Part shown: piece by piece, positions 17 through 13,279 of the stretch | How the letters are laid out: the number at the start of each line of letters is the position of its first letter | Numbering within the stretch: position 1 is the first letter of the stretch | DNA from: Thauera humireducens | Lineage (GTDB): Bacteria > Pseudomonadota > Gammaproteobacteria > Burkholderiales > Rhodocyclaceae | DNA length: 64,000 bases | Assembly: GCF_001051995.2 (NCBI RefSeq) | Contig: NZ_CP014646.1 | Span: forward strand, 1,736,001 to 1,800,000 | Direction: 5' to 3' | The notes under the pieces: model-generated | The model's input: only the letters and a program-made list of their open reading frames with translations | What the model was told of the DNA's origin: nothing | The model's database searches: none | Made by a program: the position numbers and the translations under genes

Positions 17-769
17 ATGCCCCTCGCGGGCCGGCGCGCCCTCATCACCGGCGGCTCGCGCGGTATCGGGCTGGCCATTGCCGAGCGCTTCATCGAGGCG
101 GGCGCCGAAGTGGTCATCGTGTCGCGCAAGCAGGATCAGCTCGATGCCGTCGCCGCCCAGTTGCGCACGCGAGGCGGCAAGGCGCATGCGATCGCCGCCC
201 ATGTCGGCAAGCTCGACGAGATCCGCGCCCTGGTCGCCCGCCTGGACACCGAAGGCCTGGCCATCGACGTGCTGGTCAACAACGCCGGGATCAGCCCGCC
301 CCACGTCGAATCCATGGTCGACACCACCGAGGCGCTGTGGGACAAGGTGATGGACGTCAATCTGAAGGGCCCATTCTTCCTCACTGCCGAGATCGGCCGC
401 CGCATGGCCGCGCGCGGCGGCGGCAGCGTGGTCAACATCAGCACGACCTCGGCGCTGATGGCCCAGCCCGAGATCGCCGCCTACTGCATCTCGAAGGCCG
501 CGCTCAACGCCATGACCCGCTGCTTCGCCCGCGAACTCGGGCCCCAGGGCGTGCGGGTGAACGCGATCTCCTGCGGGGTGATCAAGACGGCGATGGGCGA
601 CCACACGCTGAACGATCCGCAGCGCTATGCCGACATGATGAAGATCAACCCGCTCAAACGCGTCGGCTACCCGGAGGAAGTCGCGGCCACCGCGCTCTAC
701 CTGGCGAGCGATGCATCGAGCTACAGCACGGGCATCATCCTGCAGGTCGACGGCGGCGTTCTGGCCTGA
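17..769 (+). CDS. SDR family oxidoreductase (possibly 5' partial)
   Basis: Classical short-chain dehydrogenase/reductase of 250 residues, a normal length for the family. The nucleotide-binding motif GGSRGIG lies near residues 12-18, NNAG near 90, and the catalytic Ser...YCISK (Tyr-x-x-x-Lys) near 142-160. The C-terminus has the usual VDGG. It should oxidise or reduce a hydroxyl/keto group with NAD(P)(H) in the cytoplasm; the substrate cannot be read from sequence. No Shine-Dalgarno is visible before the ATG, and the frame stays open to the window edge, so the true start may lie upstream. The FadD17-like ligase begins 10 bp downstream, which suggests a shared transcript and a role on a steroid or fatty-acyl intermediate. 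Confidence 0.85.
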   Translation: MPLAGRRALITGGSRGIGLAIAERFIEAGAEVVIVSRKQDQLDAVAAQLRTRGGKAHAIAAHVGKLDEIRALVARLDTEGLAIDVLVNNAGISPPHVESMVDTTEALWDKVMDVNLKGPFFLTAEIGRRMAARGGGSVVNISTTSALMAQPEIAAYCISKAALNAMTRCFARELGPQGVRVNAISCGVIKTAMGDHTLNDPQRYADMMKINPLKRVGYPEEVAATALYLASDASSYSTGIILQVDGGVLA

Positions 770-779
770 GGCTGGCGCG

Positions 780-2417
780 ATGAACACCATTGCCGAGTTC
801 GTGCGCGCACGCGCCAACGACGACAACATCGGACTGCTGTACGGCGACGAGCGCTGGTCGTATCGCGAGTTCGTCGCCCTGTGCGCCCAGCGCGCGGCCT
901 GGCTGCTCAGCAATCGGCGCGAAGGCCCCTTCCACGTCGGCATCCTGCTCGACAACGTGCCCGAGTTCCCGTTCTGGATCGGCGCCTGCGCACTCGCCGG
1001 CGCGACCATGGTCGGGATCAATGCGACCCGCCGCGGCGCAGACCTCGCGCGCGACATCAACCATACCGACTGCCAGCTGCTCATCACGCAGGACGCCTGG
1101 CTGCCCGCGCTCGCCGGCCTGGCGCTGGACTGCGGCATCGAGCGCATCCTCAACGTCGACAGCACGGCCGGTCGTGCCGCCCTCGCCGCCCATACGGGCG
1201 CGGCGCTGCCCACGGTGCAGGTCCGCCCCGAAGACATCTTCATGCTGATCTTCACCTCCGGCTCGAGTGGCGCGCCGAAGGCCTGCATCTGCTCGCACGA
1301 CCGCATCGCGACGCTGACGCGAACCGTCGCGCAGCACTGCGGGCACGGGCCGGACACGGTCAGCTACGTGACCATGCCCTGGTTCCACGCCGCCGCGATC
1401 AACACCGGCTGGCTGCCCGCACTCAGCGCCGGCTCGGCGACCGTGATCCGCAAGTTCTCGGTGTCGGCCTTCCTGCCCGACGTACGCCGCTACGGGGTGA
1501 CCCACTTCAACTATGTGGGCAAGCCGCTCGCCTACCTGCTCACCGCGCCCGAGAGGCCCGACGACGCCAACAACCCGCTGCGGGTCGTGCTCGGCAACGA
1601 AGGGGCGATCGACGACGTCGAACGCTTCGCACGGCGCTTCGGCTGCACCGTGATCGATGGCTATGGCTCGACCGAAGGCGGGATCTCGATCTCGCGCCGC
1701 CCCGGGATGCCGCGCGGCTGCCTGGGCCTGCCCAACCAGGACGGCGTCGCGGTCTTCGACCCGGCCACCGGCGCCGAATGCCCACGCGCGCGCTTCGGCC
1801 CCGAGGGTCAGCTGCTCAACCCCAACGAGGCCATCGGCGAACTCGTCAACACCCGTGGCGCAGCAGGCTTCGAGGGCTACTGGAACAACCCGGACGCCAG
1901 CCACAAGCGGGTGCGCAACGGCATCTTCTGGAGCGGTGACCTCGCCTACCGTGACGAGCAGGGCTACTTCTGGTTCGCCGGGCGCGACGACGACTGGTTG
2001 CGCGTGGACGGCGAGAACATCGCCTCGGCACAGATCGAGGAAGTCCTCATCCGCCACCCCGACGTGGTGCTTGCAGGCATCTATGCGGTGCCGGATCCCG
2101 CCGTCGGCGACCGCGTGATGGCCGCAATCGAGCTGCGCGAAGAGGCTGTTTTCGACCCCGCCGCATTCGAGGACTTCCTCGCCCGACAGCCCGACTTCGG
2201 GACCAAGTGGATGCCGAGCTTCATCCGCGTCTCGCCGAGCATGCCGATGACCGCCACCTCCAAGGTCCTGCGCCGGCAGCTGCGTATGGAGCGCTGGCAC
2301 ACGGCAGACCCGGTGTGGTGGAAGCCCGCGCACGACCAGGCCTACCGCCCGCTCGACGCCGAAGCCATCGCCGCCTACGAGGCCGGCTTCACGCCCGGCG
2401 CATTGCAGCGACTGTGA
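780..2417 (+). CDS. FadD17-like acyl-CoA ligase (AMP-forming)
   Basis: ANL-superfamily acyl-CoA synthetase of 545 residues. Seen: the phosphate-binding loop IFTSGSSGAPK, the adenine motif YGSTEGG, the hinge-side motif GRDDDWLRVDGEN, and a C-terminal TSKVLRRQL that supplies the adenylation lysine. The long stretch around RKFSVSAFLPDVRRYGVTH and NYVGKPLAYLL closely resembles what I remember of mycobacterial FadD17, a ligase for steroid side-chain carboxylates, so I infer activation of a steroid or terpenoid carboxylic acid with ATP and CoA. An upstream in-frame ATG at 711 lies inside the preceding SDR and is rejected; the ATG at 780 gives a family-like N-terminus (MNTIAEFVRAR). It lies in the same run as the sulfatase genes. 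Confidence 0.85.
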   Translation: MNTIAEFVRARANDDNIGLLYGDERWSYREFVALCAQRAAWLLSNRREGPFHVGILLDNVPEFPFWIGACALAGATMVGINATRRGADLARDINHTDCQLLITQDAWLPALAGLALDCGIERILNVDSTAGRAALAAHTGAALPTVQVRPEDIFMLIFTSGSSGAPKACICSHDRIATLTRTVAQHCGHGPDTVSYVTMPWFHAAAINTGWLPALSAGSATVIRKFSVSAFLPDVRRYGVTHFNYVGKPLAYLLTAPERPDDANNPLRVVLGNEGAIDDVERFARRFGCTVIDGYGSTEGGISISRRPGMPRGCLGLPNQDGVAVFDPATGAECPRARFGPEGQLLNPNEAIGELVNTRGAAGFEGYWNNPDASHKRVRNGIFWSGDLAYRDEQGYFWFAGRDDDWLRVDGENIASAQIEEVLIRHPDVVLAGIYAVPDPAVGDRVMAAIELREEAVFDPAAFEDFLARQPDFGTKWMPSFIRVSPSMPMTATSKVLRRQLRMERWHTADPVWWKPAHDQAYRPLDAEAIAAYEAGFTPGALQRL

Positions 2418-2472
2418 ACACTCAACCGGCGGCGGCGCAACGGCGGCCGGCCGCCAACACGGGAGACACCCC

Positions 2473-3627
2473 ATGAACGGAGGCAGCATCGGGCCGCTAC
2501 TGGCGGCCGACGAGGGCTTCACGCATCAGATCGTCGACACCTTCGCCAGCGTCGCCCACACCGACCCCGCCTGGACAGAGAAGGTGTGCGGCATGGCGGC
2601 TGCACGCGACGGCTCGCTGCAGGTGGGCTTCGGCTTCGGCAAGTATGTGAACCGCAACGTGGTCGATGCTTACGGCGGCGTCTCGCGCGGGGTCGCGCAG
2701 TGGGCGGTGCAGGCCAGCCGCGAACTGTCCCACGCGCCCGACAGCATCGGCGTCGGCCCGCTGCACTATGAGGTCATCGAGCCGCTCAGGCGCATCCGCG
2801 TGCGGCTGGACGCGACCGACGTGCAGCCGATCGCCTTCGACCTCGAGCTCGAAGGCATCGTGCCCTGCTTCGTCGAGGCGCGCGAGGACCGTCGTGGCCT
2901 CACCGGCTACCGCCGTACCGCGGACCAGATCCGCTACCACCAGACCGGCCACGCCCGCGGCTGGGTCGAGCTCGAGGGCCGGCGCACCGAAGTGACGCCC
3001 GACACCTGGATCATGACCCGCGACCACTCCTGGGGCATCCGCCCGGCGGTCGGCCAGCCACTCACCGACCTCGCGCCCGAGCCGGTGGATTCCGCGCACA
3101 TACGCGTGCTCGCGATCTGGAACCCGCTCTATTTCCAGGCAGCCGACGGCAGCACCTACGCCTATCACCAGTACTACCTGCACTACGCGGCGCCCGGCTT
3201 CGAACAGAAGCAGGTGCAGGGCCACTTCGAATACGCCGACGGGCGCCGGGTGCCGGTCGCGGCGATCGAGCCCGCGCTGCGGTTCGACCCGCGCAACCGC
3301 CGTCTGCTCGGAGGCGTCTTTCATCTGCGCATGGCCGACGGCAGCACGCGCGAACTGCGCGCCCGCCCGCTGGGCGATACCGGCTTCCACCTTGGCGGCG
3401 GCGGCTACCACCGGCTCGACGGCAAGAACCATGGGAGCTACCGCGGTCCGCTGCACGTCGAGGGCGAGCACTTCGCCGACTGTTCGCAGCCCGAAGCGGT
3501 CGCCATCCTCAACCAGTTCCGCGACTGCATGATCGAGGTCGTCGACAGCGGCACGGGCGCCACCGGCTGGGGCAACTGCCAGACCTACGTGTCCGGCGCC
3601 TGGCCCGAGCTTGGCCTGCCCGCATGA
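2473..3627 (+). CDS. Conserved protein, lipocalin-like (CrtC/AttH-like or DUF7064-type)
   Basis: A 384-residue protein with no signal peptide or membrane segment. It is rich in beta-strand-forming sequence and appears to hold two related halves, roughly residues 10-190 and 200-370. The motif RDHSWGIRP near 180 recalls the D-H-x-W-G motif of CrtC/AttH-type lipocalin-like hydratases, and proteins of this kind occur in steroid and terpenoid gene clusters. The function is not known to me; binding or hydration of a hydrophobic ring substrate is only a guess. The next gene (sulfatase maturase) starts inside its stop codon (ATGA overlap), so the two are translationally coupled. A Shine-Dalgarno-like GGGAGA precedes the ATG. 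Confidence 0.6.
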   Translation: MNGGSIGPLLAADEGFTHQIVDTFASVAHTDPAWTEKVCGMAAARDGSLQVGFGFGKYVNRNVVDAYGGVSRGVAQWAVQASRELSHAPDSIGVGPLHYEVIEPLRRIRVRLDATDVQPIAFDLELEGIVPCFVEAREDRRGLTGYRRTADQIRYHQTGHARGWVELEGRRTEVTPDTWIMTRDHSWGIRPAVGQPLTDLAPEPVDSAHIRVLAIWNPLYFQAADGSTYAYHQYYLHYAAPGFEQKQVQGHFEYADGRRVPVAAIEPALRFDPRNRRLLGGVFHLRMADGSTRELRARPLGDTGFHLGGGGYHRLDGKNHGSYRGPLHVEGEHFADCSQPEAVAILNQFRDCMIEVVDSGTGATGWGNCQTYVSGAWPELGLPA

Positions 3628-4886
3628 GCACGCCCGCCGAAAGCGCTGCCCCGCGCTGCAACCTGCCGCCCCTGCCGCCGGGGCGGCACTACCGTTACCA
3701 CGTGATGGTCAAGCCGGCCGGCGCGCTGTGCAACCTCGACTGTCCGTACTGTTTCTACCTGCACAAGACCGACCTGCTGCAGCACGGCCGCAACGCGCGC
3801 ATGGACGAGGGGCTGCTGGAAACCCACATCCGCCAGTACATCGAGGCCCAGACCGGCGACGAGGTGGTGTTCTCCTGGCAGGGCGGCGAGCCCACGGTGA
3901 TGGGGCTGGACTTCTTCCGCCGCGTGGTCGAACTGCAGGCACGCCATCGCAAGCCCGGCCAGCGCATCGAGAACGACCTGCAGACCAACGGCCTGCTGCT
4001 CGACGACGAATGGGTCACCTTCCTGAAGGCGCACGGCTTCGTCGTCGGCCTCAGCGTGGACGGCACCCGCGAGCTGCACGACCGCTACCGCCCGACCAAG
4101 GGCGGCGAGCCGACCTACGACCGCGTCATCGCCGCGGCCAACCGGCTGGCGGCGGCCGAGGTGCCCTTCTCCCTGCTGTGCGTGGTCAATCGCGACGTGG
4201 CACGGGCACCGCTCGAGGTCTATCGCAACCTGCGCGCGATCCCGGGCAGCTTCCGCATCCAGTTCACGCCCTGCGTCGAGACGCGCGACTTCAAGCTGCG
4301 CGCCCCCGGCCTCGCCAGGCCGGCCGACATGCCGCTGCTCGGCACCCCGCGCACGCGGCCCGATCACCCGCTGTCCATCGTCACCGAGTGGTCGGTCGAT
4401 GCCCGCGACTATGGCGACTTCCTGTGTGCGGTGTGGGCGGAATGGCTGGCGCAGGACTTCGGCCGCCTGCACATCAACGTGTTCGAGACCGCCGTGGCGC
4501 AGTCGCTCGGCCTGCCCGCGCAGATGTGCACCAGCGCGCCGGTGTGCGGCAAGGCCATGGCGCTGGAGCACGACGGCGAGCTCTATGCCTGCGACCACTT
4601 CGTCTATCCGGAATACCGTCTCGGCAACATCCGCGAGGCCCACCAGGGCGACCTCGCCTTCGCCGACAAGCAGGTCCGGTTCGGCGTCGCCAAGCACGAC
4701 AGCCTGCCCGGCCACTGCCGGCGCTGCCCGCACCTGCAGCTGTGCTGGGGCGAATGCCCGAAGAACCGGCTGCTGCGTGCGCCCGACGGCGAGACCGGCC
4801 TCAACTACCTGTGCGAAGGCCTCGCCCACTTCTATGAACAGGTCCGCAGGGACATGCCCGCCATCCGGCGACGCCTCGGCCGGTAA
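3624..4886 (+). CDS. Anaerobic sulfatase-maturating enzyme (radical SAM, SPASM)
   Basis: Radical S-adenosylmethionine enzyme of 420 residues. The CX3CX2C cluster motif is C36-x3-C40-x2-C43 (PAGALCNLDCPYCFYL), followed by QGGEPT. The C-terminal SPASM region carries the further cysteines expected for two auxiliary 4Fe-4S clusters (CTSAPVCGKAM, YACDHF, CRRCPHLQLCWGECPK). Family knowledge: anSMEs oxidise the active-site Cys or Ser of a sulfatase to formylglycine without oxygen, in the cytoplasm before export. The client is presumably the sulfatase encoded 34 bp downstream, whose active-site residue is a serine. Oxygen-independent maturation fits a facultative denitrifier. It overlaps the preceding gene by 4 bp. 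Confidence 0.93.
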   Translation: MSTPAESAAPRCNLPPLPPGRHYRYHVMVKPAGALCNLDCPYCFYLHKTDLLQHGRNARMDEGLLETHIRQYIEAQTGDEVVFSWQGGEPTVMGLDFFRRVVELQARHRKPGQRIENDLQTNGLLLDDEWVTFLKAHGFVVGLSVDGTRELHDRYRPTKGGEPTYDRVIAAANRLAAAEVPFSLLCVVNRDVARAPLEVYRNLRAIPGSFRIQFTPCVETRDFKLRAPGLARPADMPLLGTPRTRPDHPLSIVTEWSVDARDYGDFLCAVWAEWLAQDFGRLHINVFETAVAQSLGLPAQMCTSAPVCGKAMALEHDGELYACDHFVYPEYRLGNIREAHQGDLAFADKQVRFGVAKHDSLPGHCRRCPHLQLCWGECPKNRLLRAPDGETGLNYLCEGLAHFYEQVRRDMPAIRRRLGR

Positions 4887-4920
4887 GCCCCCACGACCCC
4901 AACCCGAGAGAGGAGACCTC

Positions 4921-6456
4921 ATGAAATATCCCCAACGTCGCTGGCAACACCTGGCCCTCGCCGCCGCCATCGCCGGCTTCGGCAGCGCGCAGGCGCAGGC
5001 ACAATCGCAAGCGCCCAAGCGGCCGAACATCCTCGTGATCATGGGCGACGACATCGGCTACTCGAACGTCGGCCTCTACAGCCACGGGATGATGGTGCCC
5101 ACCCCCAACATCGACCGCATCGGACGCGAAGGCATCCTGTTCACCGATCATTACGCCCACCCGAGTTCGACCGCCGGGCGCGCGGCCTTCATCACCGGCC
5201 AACTGCCGATCCGCACCGGCCTGACCACGGTCGGCATGCCCGGCTCGCCGGTCGGGCTCGACGCGCGCGATCCGACGCTGGCCGAACTGCTCAAGGAGCT
5301 GGGCTATCGCACCGGGCAGTTCGGCAAGAACCACCTCGGCGACCGCAACGAGCACCTGCCCACGGTGCACGGATTCGACGAGTTCTACGGCAACCTTTAC
5401 CACCTCAATGCCGAGGAAGAGCCGGAACTGCGCATGTGGCGCAAGGACCCCGGCTTCAACGCCCGCTACCGGCCGCGCGGCGTGATCGACAGCGTGGCGA
5501 CCAAGGAGGACGACGCGACCGTCGACCCTCGTTTCGGCAAGGTCGGCAAGCAGAAGGTCCGCGACACCGGCCCGCTCACCACCGAGCGCATGGAAACCGT
5601 GGACGAAGAGTTCCTGGAGCGCACCAAGCGCTTCATCACCCAATCCACGCAGGCGGGCGAGCCCTTCTTCGCCTGGCTGAACACCACCCGGATGCACATC
5701 TACACGCACCTGAAGCCCGAGTCGCGTCACCTCGCCAGCGACCTCTCCAGCGAGTTCGACATCTACGGCAGCGGGCTCATCGAGCATGACGGCCACGTCG
5801 GCCAGCTGCTCGACCTGCTCGACAAGCTGAAGATCGCCGACAACACGATCGTGGTCTACACCACCGACAACGGCGCGATGGTCGCCTGGTGGCCCGACGC
5901 CGGCGCAACGCCTTTCCGCGGCGAGAAGGCCACCACCTGGGAAGGCGGCGTACGCGTGCCGATGCTGGTGCGCTGGCCGGCGAAGATCCCTGCCGGCAAG
6001 GTCTCGAACGGCATCCAGACCCATGAGGACATGTTCACCACGCTGGCCCGCGCCGCCGGCCACGACAAGGTCGCGGCCAAGCTCAAGGAGCGTGACGGCG
6101 TCTGCATCGACGGTGTCGACAATCTGGCGCACTGGACGGGCAATGCCCCCTCGGCGCGCAACGTGGTCCACTACTACGACGAGAGCAAGTACACGGCGAT
6201 CCGCATCGGCGCGTGGAAGAGCCACTACCAGACGCGCGAGGGCTTCTTCGACAGCCACAAGCCGAGCTCGCTGGTGTTCAACCTGCGCATGGACCCGTAC
6301 GAGCGACATGGCGGACAGAAGAGCAACGATCTCGCCATGAAGATGGGCATCGGTTTCGGCGGCCAGGTCGCGGACGCCGTCGGCGCCCACATGGCCAGTT
6401 TCCAGGCCTGTCCGCCGCGGCAGAAGGGAGGCTCCCTGCGGATGGGAGGCCAATGA
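4921..6456 (+). CDS. Exported serine-type sulfatase
   Basis: Sulfatase of 511 residues with an N-terminal signal peptide (MKYPQRRWQHLALAAAIAGF..., likely cleavage near residues 25-29), so a periplasmic enzyme. Metal-binding DD is at 43-44. The formylglycine signature reads S83-T-A-G-R87, fitting the core pattern [CS]-x-[PA]-x-R with serine as the residue to be oxidised. A later TTDNGA contributes further metal ligands. A serine-type sulfatase needs an anSME, and one is encoded immediately upstream. The substrate is unknown; neighbouring steroid ligase genes suggest a sulfated steroid or bile acid, but this is inference. The start at 4921 follows a good GAGAGGAG; the longer upstream frame lies within the maturase gene. 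The stop overlaps the MoxR start (ATGA). Confidence 0.9.
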   Translation: MKYPQRRWQHLALAAAIAGFGSAQAQAQSQAPKRPNILVIMGDDIGYSNVGLYSHGMMVPTPNIDRIGREGILFTDHYAHPSSTAGRAAFITGQLPIRTGLTTVGMPGSPVGLDARDPTLAELLKELGYRTGQFGKNHLGDRNEHLPTVHGFDEFYGNLYHLNAEEEPELRMWRKDPGFNARYRPRGVIDSVATKEDDATVDPRFGKVGKQKVRDTGPLTTERMETVDEEFLERTKRFITQSTQAGEPFFAWLNTTRMHIYTHLKPESRHLASDLSSEFDIYGSGLIEHDGHVGQLLDLLDKLKIADNTIVVYTTDNGAMVAWWPDAGATPFRGEKATTWEGGVRVPMLVRWPAKIPAGKVSNGIQTHEDMFTTLARAAGHDKVAAKLKERDGVCIDGVDNLAHWTGNAPSARNVVHYYDESKYTAIRIGAWKSHYQTREGFFDSHKPSSLVFNLRMDPYERHGGQKSNDLAMKMGIGFGGQVADAVGAHMASFQACPPRQKGGSLRMGGQ

Positions 6457-7523
6457 GCGAGACCGCGCACGCTGCCTTCGCACGCCTGCGCGGGCAGCTC
6501 GACCAGGCGATCGTCGGTCAGCCGGCGCTGATCGACGCGCTGCTGATCGCCCTGCTCGCCGACGGTCACCTGTTGCTCGAGGGCTTGCCCGGGCTGGCCA
6601 AGACGCGCGCGATCAAGGCGCTCGGGCAGGCTCTCAGCCTACGCCTGTCGCGCATCCAGTTCACCCCCGACCTGCTGCCATCGGACCTCATCGGTGCCGA
6701 GGTCTATCACCAGACCGAGCCGGGCCAGGGGCGCTTCGTCTTCGAGGCGGGCCCGGTGTTCGCCCCGCTGGTGCTGGCCGATGAGATCAATCGTGCGCCG
6801 GCGAAGGTGCAGTCCGCGCTGCTGGAGGCGATGGAGGAACGTCAGGTGACCGTCGCCGGGAAGACCCATCCCCTGCCCTGGCCCTTCCTCGTGATGGCGA
6901 CGCAGAATCCGATCGAGCACGAGGGCACCTATCCCCTGCCCGAGGCGCAGACGGACCGCTTCCTGATGAAGACCCGGGTCGGCTATCCGGATTTCGATGC
7001 CGAACGCGACATCCTGCACCTGGTACGCGAGGAAGAAGGCCGGCGGCTCGCCGTGGCGCAGAGCCACCCCGACACGGCTTCCGGCGGCCTCGCTGAACCG
7101 CCCGCTGAACCCATCACAGCCTTCCTTCGCGAGCCCGACGCCGCGCGGACGCAGCCCGAACACACGCCCGTGGCGTGGCTGGCCGACGCCCGGCGGGCGG
7201 TCCATGCCGTACATGTGTCGACCGCCATCGACACCTATCTGGTCGATCTGATCCAGGCCACGCGTACGCCCGAGCGCCTCAGCCCGGAGGTGGCGCGCTG
7301 GATCGAGGCAGGCGCCAGTCCGCGCGGCACGATCGCGCTCGACCGCTGCGCACGCGCTCATGCCTGGCTGCGCGGGCGCGACTTCGTCGGCCCCGACGAC
7401 GTGCTCGCGGTGCTCCACCCCTGCCTCCGGCACCGGCTGGTACTCAGCCACGAAGCCCTGGCCGCGGGGGTGGAGGCCGACGCGATCATCGATCGCATTG
7501 CAGCGCTGGTTGCCGCGCCATGA
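6453..7523 (+). CDS. MoxR-family AAA+ ATPase
   Basis: AAA+ ATPase of 356 residues. Walker A is G44-LPGLAK-T51, Walker B ends in D110-E111 (LVLADEINRAP), and the MoxR-typical EAMEERQVT and ATQNP follow. Family knowledge: MoxR ATPases work with vWA-domain partners as chaperones for maturation or metal insertion of client proteins, often exported ones. Here the ATG overlaps the sulfatase stop, and the downstream DUF58 gene overlaps this one (ATGA), so synthesis is coupled to both. The immediate client may therefore be the sulfatase; this is inference from position only. Confidence 0.92.
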   Translation: MSETAHAAFARLRGQLDQAIVGQPALIDALLIALLADGHLLLEGLPGLAKTRAIKALGQALSLRLSRIQFTPDLLPSDLIGAEVYHQTEPGQGRFVFEAGPVFAPLVLADEINRAPAKVQSALLEAMEERQVTVAGKTHPLPWPFLVMATQNPIEHEGTYPLPEAQTDRFLMKTRVGYPDFDAERDILHLVREEEGRRLAVAQSHPDTASGGLAEPPAEPITAFLREPDAARTQPEHTPVAWLADARRAVHAVHVSTAIDTYLVDLIQATRTPERLSPEVARWIEAGASPRGTIALDRCARAHAWLRGRDFVGPDDVLAVLHPCLRHRLVLSHEALAAGVEADAIIDRIAALVAAP

Positions 7524-8560
7524 CGCCGCTCCAGCGCCTGCTGCCCGGCGGCCGGTGGCCATGGTCGCGCCGCACCACCGCGTCCGCCGCGCGCGCGGCG
7601 CCGACGCCCGGCGCAGTGCCGACGCCCGGCGTCTACCTCGGGCTGGGCGATCTGCTGGCGCTGGAACATCCCGTCCGCCGGCTGCGCTGGCCCGCGCGCG
7701 GCGCGCCGGTCCACAGCCAGCTGGCCGGCCGCCATCGCGCCCGCGTGCGCGGCCGCGGCCTGGACTTCATCGAGCTGCGCCAGTACCTGCCGGGCGACGA
7801 CACCCGCAGCATCGACTGGCGAGCAAGCGTCCGCACCGGCAAGACCCAGCTCAGGGTGTATGGCGAGGAGCGGGAACACCCCACCTGGCTGGTGGTGGAC
7901 CAGCGCATCTCGATGTTCTTCGCCCGGCGCGGCGCGCTGCGCTCGGTGGTGGCGGGCGAAGCCGCAGCCGTCTGGGGCTGGCGTGCGCTCGCTTCGGGTG
8001 ACCGCGTCGGCGGGCTCGTGTTCGGCGACGACGGCATCGACGCCATCACGCCGGGTCGCGGTCGGCGTTCGCTGCTGCGCCTGCTCGACCGCCTGGTTGC
8101 CCGCAATCACCGGCTGCGCGCCGACACCGCCTGTCCGGCTCGCCCTGCGCAGTTCGATGCCGCCCTGACGCAACTGCTCGCCCGGGCGCCGCGCGATGCC
8201 GTCATCGTCGTGCTGTCCGACTTCGATGGCATGGGCGCGCACAGCCGCGAGCAGCTCATCGCACTCGCCCGTCACAACGACCTGGTTCTGCTGCCGATCC
8301 GCGACGATCCCGGCACCACGCGCCCGGCCCGCCTGGTCGTCACCGACGGCAGCCTCCAGCTTCCGATCGATCACACCGACGAGCTCGTGCGCAGCCGCCT
8401 GGCCGAGATCGCGCATGCGCGCATGGAAGGCCTGCTCGCGCTGCGCAGGGAGATCGGCTGCGTCGTCTTCCCGCTCAGCACCAGCGAACCGGCGCTGCTG
8501 CAGCTGGCACGCGGCATGGCCAGCCCGGCCCCACGTGCGCCGCGTCCGCGTGGCGGCTGA
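7520..8560 (+). CDS. DUF58 / vWA-like protein of the MoxR module
   Basis: DUF58 protein of 346 residues. The family hallmark around residues 70-105 is clear (GRGLDFIELRQYLPGDD, RSIDWRAS), followed by a degenerate vWA fold (WLVVDQRISM, VIVVLSDFDG). The N-terminal ~40 residues are low-complexity Ala/Pro/Arg. DUF58 proteins are usual partners of MoxR ATPases and are often membrane-associated; no obvious transmembrane segment is seen here. Start at 7520 overlaps the MoxR stop by 4 bp. The DUF4381 gene begins 7 bp after its stop. Confidence 0.88.
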   Translation: MTPLQRLLPGGRWPWSRRTTASAARAAPTPGAVPTPGVYLGLGDLLALEHPVRRLRWPARGAPVHSQLAGRHRARVRGRGLDFIELRQYLPGDDTRSIDWRASVRTGKTQLRVYGEEREHPTWLVVDQRISMFFARRGALRSVVAGEAAAVWGWRALASGDRVGGLVFGDDGIDAITPGRGRRSLLRLLDRLVARNHRLRADTACPARPAQFDAALTQLLARAPRDAVIVVLSDFDGMGAHSREQLIALARHNDLVLLPIRDDPGTTRPARLVVTDGSLQLPIDHTDELVRSRLAEIAHARMEGLLALRREIGCVVFPLSTSEPALLQLARGMASPAPRAPRPRGG

Positions 8561-8567
8561 ACGATCG

Positions 8568-9158
8568 ATGCAGACCCTCGACGCGCCGCGCCTGCTGCCC
8601 CACGAGGCGGCGGACATGCCGCCCACGATCAACGCCCAGGCGGTGCTCGACCAGCTTCACCCGCTGCAGGTCCCGCCCGCTCCGGCCTGGTCGCCCCAGG
8701 CGCCGGGCTGGATGGTGCTTGCCGCCGTCGCGCTGACGGCATTGGCCGTGCTTGCATGGCGAACCTTCCGGCGCTGGCGGGCCGGCCGGCACCGACGCGC
8801 GGCCCTTGCGGAGCTTCAGCGTCTGCGCGCATCCATGCGGGACCCCGCCCTTCGGCTCGCGGCAGCCCGGGCGATCCCTGCGCTGGTGCGCCGGCTGGCC
8901 CTCGCCCATGCGCCGCGCGCCGAGGTCGCCGCCCTGCACGGCGCGGACTGGCATGCCTGGCTGGACCGCAGCCTGGGCGACCCCGCCCAGCCGTTCTCGA
9001 GTGGCGTGGGCTGGGGCCAGGGACTGGGCGATTGGGCCTATCGCCCCGCCGAAACCCTGCCCTGGGAACGGCTCGAGCCGAGCCTGGACCTGGTGGAGCG
9101 CTGGATCCGCACGCATCGCGTCGAGCACGACGCAGGCGGCCCGGGGAGGCGCAGATGA
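8568..9158 (+). CDS. DUF4381 membrane protein of the MoxR module
   Basis: Small protein of 196 residues with one clear transmembrane helix near residues 47-65 (WMVLAAVALTALAVLAW), followed by a basic cytoplasmic segment (RTFRRWRAGRHRR) and a helical domain. LDQLHPLQVPP before the helix and the whole layout match DUF4381, regularly found between DUF58 and vWA genes in Bat-type operons. Exact function is unknown; it probably helps anchor the MoxR/vWA complex to the inner membrane. The ATG at 8568 was chosen because it sits just after the DUF58 stop; a second Met (residue 17) is possible. The stop overlaps the next vWA gene (ATGA). Confidence 0.8.
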   Translation: MQTLDAPRLLPHEAADMPPTINAQAVLDQLHPLQVPPAPAWSPQAPGWMVLAAVALTALAVLAWRTFRRWRAGRHRRAALAELQRLRASMRDPALRLAAARAIPALVRRLALAHAPRAEVAALHGADWHAWLDRSLGDPAQPFSSGVGWGQGLGDWAYRPAETLPWERLEPSLDLVERWIRTHRVEHDAGGPGRRR

Positions 9159-10198
9159 GCGCGTGGCCGGGGGCGCACTGGCTGGCCAACGTCGACTGGG
9201 CACATCCCTGGGCGGCCCTGCTGTGGCCGCTCGCCCTGTTGTGGGTCGCCCTCCCACCGCACCGCGAGCGGCGTACCGCGCTGCGCGTGCCCTTCTTCGC
9301 GCTCGCGGTCGCCGGCAGCGGGGAGCGCCCGCGTGCCGGCGCCATCGTCCGCGCGCACGGCGCATGGGGCTGGCTGATGCTCGGCCTGGCGTGGAGCGCC
9401 GGCGTGCTCGCGGTGATGCAGCCCCATTGGCTGGAGCCGCCGGTCCCGCGCGTGCAGTCCGCACGCGACTGGCTGCTGGCCATCGACCTGTCGCCTTCCA
9501 TGCAGGCCACCGATTTCAAGGATGCCGATGGCCGTCCGGTGGACCGCCTGAGCGTCGTGCGCGGCGTGCTCGACGAGTTTCTCGCGCGGCGGGCGCACGA
9601 CCGTATCGGCCTGCTGGTCTTCGCCGAGCAGGCCCATGTGCAGGCGCCCTTCACCCGCGACCACGGGGCGGTGAGCGCGCTGCTGGCCGAAGCGCAGATC
9701 GGCATGGCCGGCTCACGCACGATGATCGGCGACGCGATTGGCATGGCCATCAAGGTCTTCGAGCAGTCGGCGGCGCCGCAGCGCACCCTGGTGCTGCTGA
9801 CCGACGGGGTCGACACCGGCAGCCGCATCCCGCCGGCCAAGGCGGCAGAGATCGCCGCCCGGCGCGGCGTACGCATCCACACCGTCGCCATCGGCACCGC
9901 CAGCGCAGCGGCCGGCGAGCAGCCGGATCTCGAGGCACTGCGAGCCTGGGCCGCCATCACCGGCGGGCGCGCATTCAGCGCCGACGACCGCGACGGCCTG
10001 GCTGACATCTACCGCGAACTGGACGCCCTCGAAGGGCGCGACCAGGCGCTCGCAGCCGAGCGCCCGCGGCGCCCGCTCTTTCACTGGTTCGTGGCAACGG
10101 CGCTGGCGCTGATCATCGTCCACCAGGCCGCTGCCGCGCTGCGCGGCGGGCGGGCAGCGCACGCCGTGGTCCGACACGGGTCCAGCCGCGATGAGTGA
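9155..10198 (+). CDS. Membrane vWA-domain protein (BatA-like)
   Basis: vWA protein of 347 residues. Two N-terminal hydrophobic segments lie near residues 18-34 and 70-88, then a vWA domain from about 105 to 290 and a C-terminal hydrophobic helix (WFVATALALIIVHQAAAAL). The metal-ion-dependent adhesion site is intact: D111-x-S113-x-S115, a downstream Thr (GSRTMIGD) and Asp (LLTDGVDTGS). Family knowledge: BatA/BatB-type proteins are membrane partners of MoxR ATPases, with the vWA domain facing the periplasm or membrane surface. It overlaps the following vWA gene by 8 bp. Confidence 0.87.
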   Translation: MSAWPGAHWLANVDWAHPWAALLWPLALLWVALPPHRERRTALRVPFFALAVAGSGERPRAGAIVRAHGAWGWLMLGLAWSAGVLAVMQPHWLEPPVPRVQSARDWLLAIDLSPSMQATDFKDADGRPVDRLSVVRGVLDEFLARRAHDRIGLLVFAEQAHVQAPFTRDHGAVSALLAEAQIGMAGSRTMIGDAIGMAIKVFEQSAAPQRTLVLLTDGVDTGSRIPPAKAAEIAARRGVRIHTVAIGTASAAAGEQPDLEALRAWAAITGGRAFSADDRDGLADIYRELDALEGRDQALAAERPRRPLFHWFVATALALIIVHQAAAALRGGRAAHAVVRHGSSRDE

Positions 10199-11846
10199 AT
10201 GGTTCGACGCCCTCCTGCCCGCGCACTGGCTGCGTCCGTGGGCGCTCGGCGGGCTGATCCTGGCGCTCTTGCTGGTCGTCCTTGGACGCCGTCGCAACGA
10301 GATGCGTGCGCTGCGCGAAGTCATCGATCCGCAGCTGCTTCCGCACCTGCTCGTGCATGGCGGCCCCCGACGCGGGGTGCAGCCCGCCGACACGCTCGCT
10401 GTGGCGGTGGCCTGCTTCAGCATCGCGCTCGCAGGCCCGGCCTGGGAACGCGAGCCTCCTCCACTCGCGCGCGAACAGGCCGCGCTCATGGTGGTGGTCG
10501 ACCTGTCGAGCGCAATGGATGCGACCGACCTGCCGCCCAGCCGGCTGGCCTGGGCGCGCTCGAAGCTGCACGCCCTGCTGGCGCGCCGCGGTGACGCACC
10601 CACCGGCCTGATCGTGTATGCCGGCAGCGCCCACCTGGTGTTGCCTCCCACCGACGACCGCCAGCTCCTCGCGTCCTACGTCGACGTCCTGTCCACCACA
10701 CTGATGCCCGCCGACGGCGCGCGTCCCGCCGCTGCCCTGGCGCTCGCGCATGCCTGGCTGGCGCGGACCGGGTTGCCCGGCACCGTGCTGTTCCTGACCA
10801 CCGCCTGGCCGCAGGCGGAACAGACCGGTGCCGAGCGCGAGACTGCCACCTCCCGCCACCGCCTGATCGTGTGGGCGATCGGCACCGAGCGCGGCGGCCC
10901 GATCCGGAACCCGGAGACGCGTGCCACTCCCGAGGCGAGCGGAACGCTGCGCCACGCCCGCCTCGAAGTCACCGAATTGCGCAGCCTGCGCGCGCGCAGC
11001 GGCGCAAACCTGGTGAGCGTGACTGCGGACGAAGGCGACCTGGAACGTATCCAGGCGCTCATCACCCGCCAGCAGGCCGAGGCCTCGGCCGCAGCGGCCG
11101 ACACGCGCTGGCGTGATCGCGGCGCGGACTGGGTCTGGCCCGGCCTGCTGGCGCTGTTGATGTCCTTCCGCCGTGGCTGGGTCGTCCCCTGGCGCGCCTT
11201 CTGCGGCCCGGTGCTCGCCAGCATGGTCGTCCTGTCACTGCTTTCGATGCCCTCGCCCGCCCAGGCCGGCGATGACGATGCGGGCTGGACGAATCGCCTG
11301 TCACAGCGCTTCGTCGACCTCTGGCTCACCCGCGACCAGCAGGGCCGCCTGTGGCTGGAACGCGGCGACCCGGCGCGCGCCGCGGACCTCTTCGACGACC
11401 CGCTCTGGCGCGGCATCGCCGCAGCCCGCGCCGGGCGCTGGCAGGCTGCGGCCGACGCCTTCGCGCAGGCGGACTCGGGGGCGGCCTGGTTCAACCAGGC
11501 GCAGGCGCTCGCCCGCCTCGGCCGCTACGCCGAAGCGCTGGCCGCGTATGACCAGGCCCTGATCCGTGTGCCGGGCTGGCCCGAGGCGCTCGCCGACCGT
11601 GCGCGCGTGCGCAACCTGCTGTCCGCGCGCACGGTCGCAGACGAGGGCGAACCCGCCACCGCCCCCGGCGAGGGCGACGAGCAGGGCGAGGACGGCGAGC
11701 GCAACACCCAGCCACCTGCCGAGGCCGAGGCGGCCGACGCCTGGCTGCGCCGCCTCGACACCAGCCCGGCCGCCTTCCTGCGACGCAAGTTCGCCCTGCA
11801 GGCGCAGCCGTCTGCCGCCAAGCACCCAGGATCTGCAAACCGATGA
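10191..11846 (+). CDS. vWA-TPR fusion protein (BatB/BatC-like) with degenerate MIDAS
   Basis: Protein of 551 residues combining an N-terminal membrane region (helix near 18-32, second near 68-83), a vWA domain (about 98-290), another hydrophobic stretch (about 340-360) and C-terminal TPR-like repeats (WRGIAAARAGRWQAAADAF; AAWFNQAQALARLGRYAEAL). It ends in an acidic low-complexity tail. The MIDAS is altered: D104-x-S106-x-A108 instead of DxSxS, and the later Asp position reads FLTTAW. It may therefore not bind a metal normally and may act as a scaffold, while the preceding BatA-like protein keeps an intact site. It resembles a BatB-BatC fusion. Confidence 0.82.
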   Translation: MSEWFDALLPAHWLRPWALGGLILALLLVVLGRRRNEMRALREVIDPQLLPHLLVHGGPRRGVQPADTLAVAVACFSIALAGPAWEREPPPLAREQAALMVVVDLSSAMDATDLPPSRLAWARSKLHALLARRGDAPTGLIVYAGSAHLVLPPTDDRQLLASYVDVLSTTLMPADGARPAAALALAHAWLARTGLPGTVLFLTTAWPQAEQTGAERETATSRHRLIVWAIGTERGGPIRNPETRATPEASGTLRHARLEVTELRSLRARSGANLVSVTADEGDLERIQALITRQQAEASAAAADTRWRDRGADWVWPGLLALLMSFRRGWVVPWRAFCGPVLASMVVLSLLSMPSPAQAGDDDAGWTNRLSQRFVDLWLTRDQQGRLWLERGDPARAADLFDDPLWRGIAAARAGRWQAAADAFAQADSGAAWFNQAQALARLGRYAEALAAYDQALIRVPGWPEALADRARVRNLLSARTVADEGEPATAPGEGDEQGEDGERNTQPPAEAEAADAWLRRLDTSPAAFLRRKFALQAQPSAAKHPGSANR

Positions 11847-13279
11847 ATATGCGCCCGATCCGACCCGACGCCCGGCGCCGCCAGTTGCTGCGCATGACCG
11901 CACTGCTCGCGGCGGCCGCCGCAGTCCCGGGGCGCAGCTTCGCCGGCGACCGCGCCGCCCCCGAGGCGCGCCTGCGCTGGGCCGTCGATACGGCGGGGCG
12001 GAACGATGACGCGGCATTCGAGCTCGGCGAGCCGATCATCATTCGGCTGGAGGTCTGGGTCAGCACCTGGTTCCAGGCCCCGGTCGATTTCCCCGCCACG
12101 CTGGCGACCGAGTCTGCCATCGTCGAGGAGATCGGCGGTTCGCCCGAAGCGGGGTTCGATGACATCGACGGCCGGCGGTGGACCGGGCTGATCCGCCGTT
12201 ACCGCGTCCATCCACTGCAACCCGGCGAGCTCGTCCTCGCACCGCCCGCAGCGCTCGAGATCCTGCCCGGACGCGGCGATGGCCGACCCTTGCGCGCGTC
12301 GTCGCCGGCGCCGCTCCGCCTGGCCGTGCGCGTGCCGAAGGGCGCCGAGGGGCTGAAGCCCTTCGTTGCCGCGCGCGCGCTCGCGCTGCAGCAGCAGTGG
12401 GAGCCCGCGCCCGACCCGGACCAGGGCTGGCAGGTCGGCGACATGCTGCTGCGCCGGATCACGCTCGTCACCGACGCCCCTTCCCCGCTGCCGCCGACCG
12501 TGCCAGCGCTGGCGAGTGTCGAGGGCACCGAGTTGCAGCGCCACAGCGCGCCCACCCGCACCGCGGAAGCGGACTCCGCCCGGACCGTCCAGGAGCACGT
12601 CGCGACGTACGTGCTGAAGGCGCCCGGCGAGCTGCATCTGCCTGCCGTCGAGCTGGCCTGGTGGGATCTCGACCAGCGCAAGGTGCGCATCAGCCAGCTG
12701 CCCGGCCGGACGGTGAAGGTCTCGGCGGCATCGATGCCCGCGGACCCGTTCGCCGAACCCGGCAGCGGGCTGGAGGCCGAGGTGCCGGACGACTCGCATC
12801 GGGCCGTCACCGCGCAGGCCTGGCGCTGGATACCGACGGGCGCACTCGCGCTCGCGCTCGCCCCATTGGCCTGGCGACACCGCAGCGCGCTCGCCGCGGC
12901 GATCCGCCGTCCGCTCCAGCGTTTGCACGCCAGCGAGACGACGGCACGCTGGCGCCTGCGTCGTGCCTGCCTGCAAAGCCGGCCGGCGCAGGCCGCCGCC
13001 GCGTTGCGCGTCTGGTTGCAGACCCTGGATCCAGCCTTGCGAAGGCGCATTCGCGCCGACACTGCCTGCGCCGAGGCCATGGAGGCGCTGGTGCGCCATC
13101 TGCACGGCCCGCAGGCGCCACAACGCCCGGCGCACTGGAACGGACCGGCGCTGTGGCACGCGGTGCAGCGCGCGCGTGCGGCCTTACCGAAGACGCAGGA
13201 TCTGGACGCCGCACTCCCCGAGCTCAATCCCCGCATGCAGGGCGACGCAAAGCTTCCCCACCCGGCGTCACGCAGATGA
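11843..13279 (+). CDS. BatD-like exported membrane protein
   Basis: Protein of 478 residues with an N-terminal signal sequence that includes a twin-arginine-like RRRQLLRM and a hydrophobic core (TALLAAAAAVPG). A large beta-rich region follows, then one transmembrane helix near residues 330-348 (WIPTGALALALAPLAW) and a basic C-terminal tail. This layout (signal, periplasmic Ig-like domains, helix, cytoplasmic tail) is that of BatD, the last member of aerotolerance-type MoxR operons. Primary-sequence similarity to BatD is weak by eye, so the call rests partly on position. It overlaps the vWA-TPR gene by 4 bp. Confidence 0.68.
   Translation: MNMRPIRPDARRRQLLRMTALLAAAAAVPGRSFAGDRAAPEARLRWAVDTAGRNDDAAFELGEPIIIRLEVWVSTWFQAPVDFPATLATESAIVEEIGGSPEAGFDDIDGRRWTGLIRRYRVHPLQPGELVLAPPAALEILPGRGDGRPLRASSPAPLRLAVRVPKGAEGLKPFVAARALALQQQWEPAPDPDQGWQVGDMLLRRITLVTDAPSPLPPTVPALASVEGTELQRHSAPTRTAEADSARTVQEHVATYVLKAPGELHLPAVELAWWDLDQRKVRISQLPGRTVKVSAASMPADPFAEPGSGLEAEVPDDSHRAVTAQAWRWIPTGALALALAPLAWRHRSALAAAIRRPLQRLHASETTARWRLRRACLQSRPAQAAAALRVWLQTLDPALRRRIRADTACAEAMEALVRHLHGPQAPQRPAHWNGPALWHAVQRARAALPKTQDLDAALPELNPRMQGDAKLPHPASRR

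Follow-up and report, generated by a model that had tools for sequence, protein, structure and literature searches.

Why would a sulfatase and its anaerobic maturase be encoded in one operon with a MoxR/vWA system? The question is raised by a 64,000-nucleotide stretch of the Thauera humireducens genome (contig NZ_CP014646.1, positions 1,736,001 to 1,800,000; hereafter the window), in which eight genes run together at 3624-13279. The original prediction proposed that the periplasmic sulfatase is the client of the MoxR/vWA proteins. We found that the coupling is real and recurrent. MoxR/vWA operons of the window type, which we name Bat2 to set them apart from the generic ones (Bat1), have a nearby sulfatase of the same family at 25 distinct loci, in two orders and four arrangements, and on trees Bat2 lies outside the generic operons as a distinct subtype. 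The coupling is apparently undescribed. Judging from the sequences, we give a probability of about 65% to the reading that the eight genes form one module in which Bat2 is an envelope device for exported sulfatases, acting after export.

A sulfatase-maturase pair joined to a Bat-type operon

All eight genes lie on the + strand, no junction exceeds 34 bp by the gene calls and starts, and the names of all eight agree with Pfam/NCBIfam models, which confirms the predicted co-directional run from anSME to the BatD-like gene. The anSME gene (3624..4886) encodes an anaerobic radical SAM/SPASM sulfatase maturase that exceeds the curated cut-off of TIGR03942 (451.6 bits, cut-off 349.45) and has both the radical SAM (PF04055) and the SPASM (PF13186) domain. 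After a gap of 34 bp follows the S1-type sulfatase (4921..6456; PF00884, 182 bits), with serine at the formylglycine site, S83-T-A-G-R87, by motif alignment. The metal and catalytic residues are conserved: D43, D44, R87, K136, H138, H259, D316, N317 and K336 are invariant in an alignment of 20 sulfatase sequences, and we take these positions to be the metal- and formylglycine-binding residues of S1 sulfatases. By sequence, 7aj0, an arylsulfatase according to its deposition, is the best-matching solved chain, and an N-terminal signal peptide read by eye suggests that the enzyme is exported.

The MoxR-type AAA+ ATPase gene (6453..7523; PF07726, 205 bits, and PF17863; best solved chain 2r44) overlaps the sulfatase gene by 4 bp, and its ATG at 6453 falls on the sulfatase stop codon (6454-6456), as had been noticed. 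Next come the genes for a DUF58 protein (7520..8560; overlap 4 bp; PF01882, 101.8 bits), a DUF4381 protein (8568..9158; gap 7 bp; PF14316, 107.5 bits) and a BatA-like vWA protein (9155..10198; overlap 4 bp; PF00092, 59.8 bits; NF047508 below its cut-off), in which a motif of the metal ion-dependent adhesion site (MIDAS) type, DLSPS, is present. A BatB-like vWA-TPR fusion with an altered MIDAS (DLSSA) is encoded at 10191..11846 (overlap 8 bp; PF13519, PF07719); profile A2, built from eight linked vWA-TPR proteins, matches the BatB chains 3ibs and 4jdu of Bat systems. The window's vWA-TPR protein ends in a C-terminal tail that recurs in some other Bat2 proteins. The last gene (11843..13279; overlap 4 bp) encodes a BatD-like protein that matches only PF25607/DUF7939, near its C-terminus; it has homologues at the same place in three of the loci described below (L060, L067, L093). 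A single-sequence structure prediction of this protein had a mean predicted local distance difference test score (pLDDT) of 35.8 and was not used. MoxR, DUF58, vWA, vWA-TPR and BatD-like proteins are the parts of Bat (Bacteroides aerotolerance) operons, which have an MRP-type MoxR; here they stand in one operon, to which the window adds DUF4381.

Recurrence beside sulfatases

A sulfatase scan of genome contigs gave 80 best loci, some with short flanks or contigs, and Bat genes flank the sulfatase in five of them. Two are from Roseateles (L060, L067) and one is from a proteobacterial metagenome-assembled genome (MAG; L093). The fourth, from a Pseudomonadales MAG (L066), has a Cys-type sulfatase and no anSME. 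The fifth, from Microbulbifer agarilyticus (L090), has its sulfatase on the opposite strand about 5 kb from Bat2, with a second, co-directional sulfatase there. L066 and L331 are one locus (26 linked rows are thus 25 loci), as are L090 and L330. When twelve sulfatase genomes were checked as a whole, the vWA-TPR profile matched in eight. In the same 80 loci, anSME was in the flanks of 5/6 with a Ser-type sulfatase and of 4/74 others (the 74 include two with the motif not read).

Of 349 genomes of the window's order, Burkholderiales (order names of the surveyed sets are inferred), 28 have the sulfatase (E 1e-60) and 30 the vWA-TPR protein (E 1e-15). Both occur in six, and in five of these, the window's genome included, they lie within 10 kb of each other. 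Each of the other four linked loci has a Cys-type sulfatase, an FGE gene and a spermine-synthase/MFS gene, and three have a HAD gene; two are co-directional and two divergent. Within the window's own family, profile A2 matched 7/106 genomes. Besides the window, two matches were strong (G988, G998), and both their loci (L347, L348) have a sulfatase; the locus of G936 (L349) is on a 7.7-kb contig beginning inside the operon, and the remaining three group with Bat1. The other two genomes of the window's genus had no A2 match in this search; the Bat2-sulfatase module is thus patchily distributed and probably mobile. Bat-type operons as such are common: the vWA-TPR protein was matched in 131/274 genomes of the class-level set, the sulfatase in 18/274 and both in nine.

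The neighbourhood survey called for by the original prediction therefore shows MoxR/vWA genes beside sulfatases at distinct loci, and we rejected the view that the linkage is a peculiarity of the window's genome. The prediction had also tied the coupling to Ser-type (S-x-A-x-R) sulfatases and anSME. This part did not hold, because most linked sulfatases are of the Cys type and FGE replaces anSME in five loci; neither the Ser-type motif nor anSME is a condition for linkage.

Bat2 and Bat1 compared in Pseudomonadales

In a set of 293 Pseudomonadales genomes, loci were selected by profile A2 and not by sulfatase. The best four candidates per genome were scored and matches were listed to about 1e-98, so a Bat2-only genome without sulfatase could be missed. 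A2 matched 220/293 genomes, and all 36 with at least two matches were inspected. Bat2, recognised as an extra paralogue matching to the model end, was found among the matches listed in 29/36 (22, and seven later); it was not recognised in the other seven, and two of these (G743, G772) have a sulfatase.

We compared stretches of up to 20 kb around 22 Bat2 paralogues with those around 22 generic ones, 20 of the latter from Bat2 genomes. A sulfatase is nearby at 13/22 Bat2 loci vs 0/22 Bat1 loci (Fisher 1.9e-5, a value that ignores shared descent), which rejects the linkage as a property of all Bat operons. Leaving out the two seed loci of the first survey, 11/20 Bat2 loci are linked. The nine unlinked loci include two on cut contigs (L295, L309), one whose contig ends at the BatD gene (L297) and six clear negatives without a sulfatase beside Bat2 (L298, L300-L304). 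The remaining seven Bat2 loci added two linked ones (L353, L354), giving 15/29.

Across the 293 genomes the sulfatase occurs in 59: in all 29 recognised Bat2 genomes, among the matches listed, and in 30/264 others (Fisher 6e-24, again ignoring shared descent). Two genomes, G620 and G621 (the latter with its vWA-TPR gene cut by the contig end), were brought in by the sulfatase scan; leaving them out gives 27/27 for co-occurrence and 11/20 for linkage.

These results bear on the strongest alternative, which we consider unlikely: that Bat2 serves general envelope stress tolerance or aerotolerance and adjoins the sulfatase through co-expression during the use of sulfated compounds. It draws support from the stress phenotypes to which Bat/MoxR operons are linked in other bacteria, according to the available part of PMC11834572, and from the many sulfatase genomes that lack Bat2. 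Against it, the available part of a Leptospira study reports no protective role (PMC3557215), the Bat1 controls are never near a sulfatase although nearly all come from Bat2-bearing genomes, and the linkage outlasts rearrangement and extends to maturase genes.

Trees of the Bat and sulfatase proteins

All trees were quick, unrooted searches on related samples. The vWA-TPR tree held 53/64 rows, since 11 rows of fewer than 290 residues were dropped; L170-L173, copies of L199-L202, had been left out beforehand. It placed all 10 then-known linked rows and one unlinked row (L176, of genome G409) in one branch (support 100/100), apart from 42 others. A four-protein tree, with MoxR, DUF58, vWA and vWA-TPR joined in 73 rows, gathered 32 Bat1 rows in one branch (Shimodaira-Hasegawa-like approximate likelihood ratio test, SH-aLRT, 100). 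The window and every sulfatase-linked row lie outside the Bat1 branch (SH-aLRT 100) in two trees, with which the vWA-TPR tree agrees, and all 29 Pseudomonadales Bat2 paralogues lie outside it in the four-protein tree. The branch that contains the window has 19 rows, of which 18 are sulfatase-linked and the other is L349, with its contig starting inside the operon. Twelve of the 18 came from searches with the vWA-TPR protein or profile, four of these also from the sulfatase search. A second Bat2 branch has 21 rows, and all 21 genomes of this subclade encode a sulfatase. One further row, L210, sits on a long branch and shifted position between trees.

Bat2 operons thus differ from generic Bat operons in standing off the 32-row Bat1 branch, in having a sulfatase alongside, in having a maturase gene in 10 rows and, in part of the set, in a C-terminal tail on the vWA-TPR protein. 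By a strict pattern the tail is present in 14/24 linked, 1/16 other Bat2 and 0/32 Bat1 rows. We rejected it as a clean Bat2 marker, since it marks only part of the set and the protein of G963 reaches the model end yet groups with Bat1.

The sulfatase tree has 136 rows, of which 23 carry the linked label, and does not include those of L347, L348, L353 and L354. The linked sulfatases are scattered over it, and its starred branches force the label to change at least 10 times. This means that Bat2 has paired with several sulfatase lineages, a pattern that one frozen arrangement would not give, although part of the scatter could stem from losses and from short contigs among the unlinked rows.

Gene order and maturases at linked loci

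The position of the sulfatase relative to Bat2 (ARRANGEMENTS) was scored over the 25 distinct linked loci. It is directly upstream of moxR in seven (window, L060, L067, L093, L331, L296, L308), upstream with an intervening gene or gap in seven (L199, L200, L299, L306, L347, L348, L354), downstream of the BatD end in seven (L290-L294, L330, L353) and divergent from Bat2 in four (L201, L202, L305, L307).

Of the 26 linked rows, in which L066 and its duplicate L331 both count, 10 have a maturase gene: anSME in five (window, L060, L067, L093, L299) and FGE in five (L199-L202, L347). The five FGEs have a C-x4-C pair in the RGGS region, which we take to be the FGE active-site motif. No maturase gene was found in the stretch examined of the other 16 linked rows, and the 32 Bat1 rows and the 16 Bat2 rows that are unlinked or truncated yielded neither anSME nor FGE. 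The order in L347 is sulfatase, spermine-synthase/MFS, MoxR, DUF58, DUF4381, FGE, vWA, vWA-TPR and BatD-like, which puts the FGE gene (7264-8478, with its C-x4-C pair) between DUF4381 and vWA within the operon. In L299 the sulfatase, a PF03781 lipoprotein (5063-5866), MoxR to BatD-like and then anSME all run in one direction. The lipoprotein lacks the active-site cysteine pair; we rejected it as an FGE and did not count it as a maturase. PF03781-type domains are also described in other roles in the available parts of PMC7159879, PMC8195603 and PMC10907252.

Proposed role of Bat2

Formylglycine is made by anSME before export. In our proposal, Ser83 of the window's sulfatase would become formylglycine through anSME while still in the cytoplasm, and Bat2, the MoxR/vWA complex, would act on the enzyme once it is exported. 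The motor would be formed by MoxR and DUF58 on the cytoplasmic side, and its force would cross the inner membrane through DUF4381 and the two membrane-anchored vWA proteins. The vWA, TPR and BatD domains would face the periplasm and might assist the apo-sulfatase in folding, in taking up calcium or in settling round its formylglycine. The topology is our reading of hydropathy and, by eye, of charge. MoxR has only a marginal hydrophobic segment and DUF58 none; DUF4381 has one, both vWA proteins have such segments, and the BatD-like protein appears by eye to have an N-terminal signal and possibly a C-terminal segment. In the vWA-TPR protein an arginine-rich loop follows the first segment and an R[RK]GW loop is conserved, which suggests a periplasmic location for the vWA and TPR parts, in the compartment that would receive the exported sulfatase.

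That the sulfatase is the client of Bat2 is the stronger half of the claim, and we hold it to be quite probable. The maturase differs from locus to locus while the sulfatase stays, and this favours the sulfatase as client. As for the step performed by Bat2, folding or metal loading is a tentative suggestion, somewhat short of an even chance; folding or calcium loading after export fits anSME loci and FGE loci alike. The broadest version, still more speculative, is that Bat2 might be a machine that spans the envelope, runs on ATP and matures formylglycine sulfatases, acting after formylglycine formation (with anSME) or during it (with a membrane-anchored FGE). It would be the first Bat-family system with a defined client, and would have been recruited to several sulfatase lineages.

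Several observations weigh against this role. No Bat2 was seen in the flanks examined, some of them short, of 75 of the best 80 sulfatase loci, and the linkage is therefore not a property of every sulfatase of the family. Four of the twelve genomes checked as a whole (those of L061, L063, L064 and L069) have a sulfatase and no Bat-type vWA-TPR match, three of them being MAGs that are possibly incomplete. The sulfatase and the vWA-TPR protein of the Burkholderiales genome G409 are on different contigs, and only the window's genome, of the nine class-level genomes with both, is linked among the matches listed, most of the others being fragmented drafts. No Bat2 was seen in 30/59 sulfatase-bearing Pseudomonadales genomes. 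The second Bat2 branch has 7 linked rows and 14 not seen adjacent to a sulfatase (L295, L297 and L309 on cut contigs), and is thus mostly unlinked; six of its members adjoin a gcvT-like gene. The sulfatase often occurs without Bat2, so Bat2 can be at most conditional. The predicted client is thus favoured by the recurrence near sulfatases and by a generic subtype that is never linked, but the operon is not obligatory.

The other neighbours also count on this side. Of the 26 linked rows, 11 have a HAD hydrolase beside Bat2, 8 a spermine-synthase/MFS fusion and 11 a multihaem cytochrome-TPR protein; the 32 Bat1 rows have none of them, and the cytochrome-TPR protein also occurs in 2/16 unlinked Bat2 rows. 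One of these three proteins could be the client and the sulfatase a bystander. We regard this as improbable, since all three went undetected around the operons with anSME in the window, L060, L067 and L093. Least probable of all is that Bat2 helps the maturase, for example by supplying FGE with metal or by offering still unfolded substrate to an FGE anchored in the membrane: FGE genes do occur in linked loci, once inside the operon, and 3/4 FGEs checked have a clear N-terminal hydrophobic segment (that of L199 is weaker, by eye), but the window locus has no FGE gene, its anSME is unrelated to FGE and presumably a cytoplasmic radical SAM enzyme, and most linked rows show no maturase gene in the stretch examined.

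Relation to known systems

In known sulfatase-maturase pairs the anSME gene lies directly upstream of a Ser-type sulfatase gene. The window has the same pair, and differs from sulfatase-anSME and sulfatase-FGE pairs in that a MoxR/vWA operon is fused to it.

In related systems, a MoxR ATPase and its vWA partner remodel a client protein or supply it with metal, and a finger of the vWA protein sits in the ring of MoxR, according to the available parts of PMC13036017 and PMC9976466; these sources also describe NorQD as required for nitric oxide reductase activity and metal insertion. NorQ/NorD, CbbQ/CbbO, RavA/ViaA and CoxD are MoxR ATPases, mostly with a vWA partner, that act on a dedicated client, and we propose by analogy that Bat2 may work likewise. 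Compared with NorQD-type systems, Bat2 has six proteins, three of them with hydrophobic segments by hydropathy, a BatD-like signal seen by eye, and an exported hydrolase as the proposed client. In the comparison with a NorQD-like metal insertase, the MIDAS motif of Bat2 is altered (DLSSA) in the vWA-TPR protein and reads DLSPS in the vWA protein.

The available parts of two Bat papers name no client (PMC3557215, PMC11834572), and the first, a dedicated Bat study, called Bat function elusive. We found no prior description of a sulfatase-MoxR/vWA coupling in the open-access literature, in agreement with the original prediction, which knew of none; subscription papers lie mostly outside this search, and we claim no priority. 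Papers that share vocabulary use it, in the parts available, in other senses, namely conflict systems, molybdoenzymes and a gene table (PMC7159879, PMC2997495, PMC12839542, PMC8195603, PMC9736018, PMC10907252). The recurrence beside sulfatases points to a job for a machine of unclear purpose, and with a Bat subtype tied to one enzyme family, client and mechanism become directly testable. If the proposal is true, a maturation step is added for exported sulfatases, and Bat2 might be co-expressed with sulfatases that are hard to obtain in active form.

Other neighbours and surroundings of the module

The multihaem cytochrome c/HEAT/TPR protein, of about 770 residues, is encoded beside Bat2 at L292:14728-17061, L296:163-2484, L348:12055-14358 and L353:6302-8551. 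The HAD hydrolase (PF12710) and the spermine-synthase/MFS fusion recur beside linked sulfatases, for example at L199:4438-5514 and L090:13223-14260. In L298 and L300-L304, Bat2 stands beside gcvT-like and kinase-like genes (named by reading), with an LssY_C-type gene in three; the sulfatase is elsewhere in the genome. A divergent Bat operon of G409 adjoins a DUF1254/DUF1214 gene (L210:13534-15111) and no sulfatase; this neighbour is possibly another client.

Elsewhere in the 4.17-Mb, single-contig genome of the window there is no further anSME above the cut-off. Within 16 kb of a second MoxR gene, at 208 kb, a vWA partner was not detected, nor was any Bat gene in the 14-16 kb stretches around the other three PF00884 genes. 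The scan for promoters and terminators gave no promoter-like site and one terminator-like site, at 3301-3316, vs 3.7 expected.

The homology of L093 to the window (95.5% over 12.8 kb) begins at 3651, and the module is therefore taken to start with anSME. The sulfatases of the two loci are 88% identical, compared with 94-99% for the Bat proteins and 95% for anSME; faster change or recombination of the sulfatase may account for this. An Rv3169-family gene directly upstream (2473-3627; 376 bits, cut-off 150) overlaps the anSME start by 4 bp, and we rejected it as a module member since it lies before the point at which the L093 homology begins. The upstream stretch (711-3627) also encodes an acyl-CoA ligase nearest to steroid-22-oyl-CoA synthetase (609 bits, below the cut-off of 900), and together these two genes suggest a setting of lipid or steroid catabolism.

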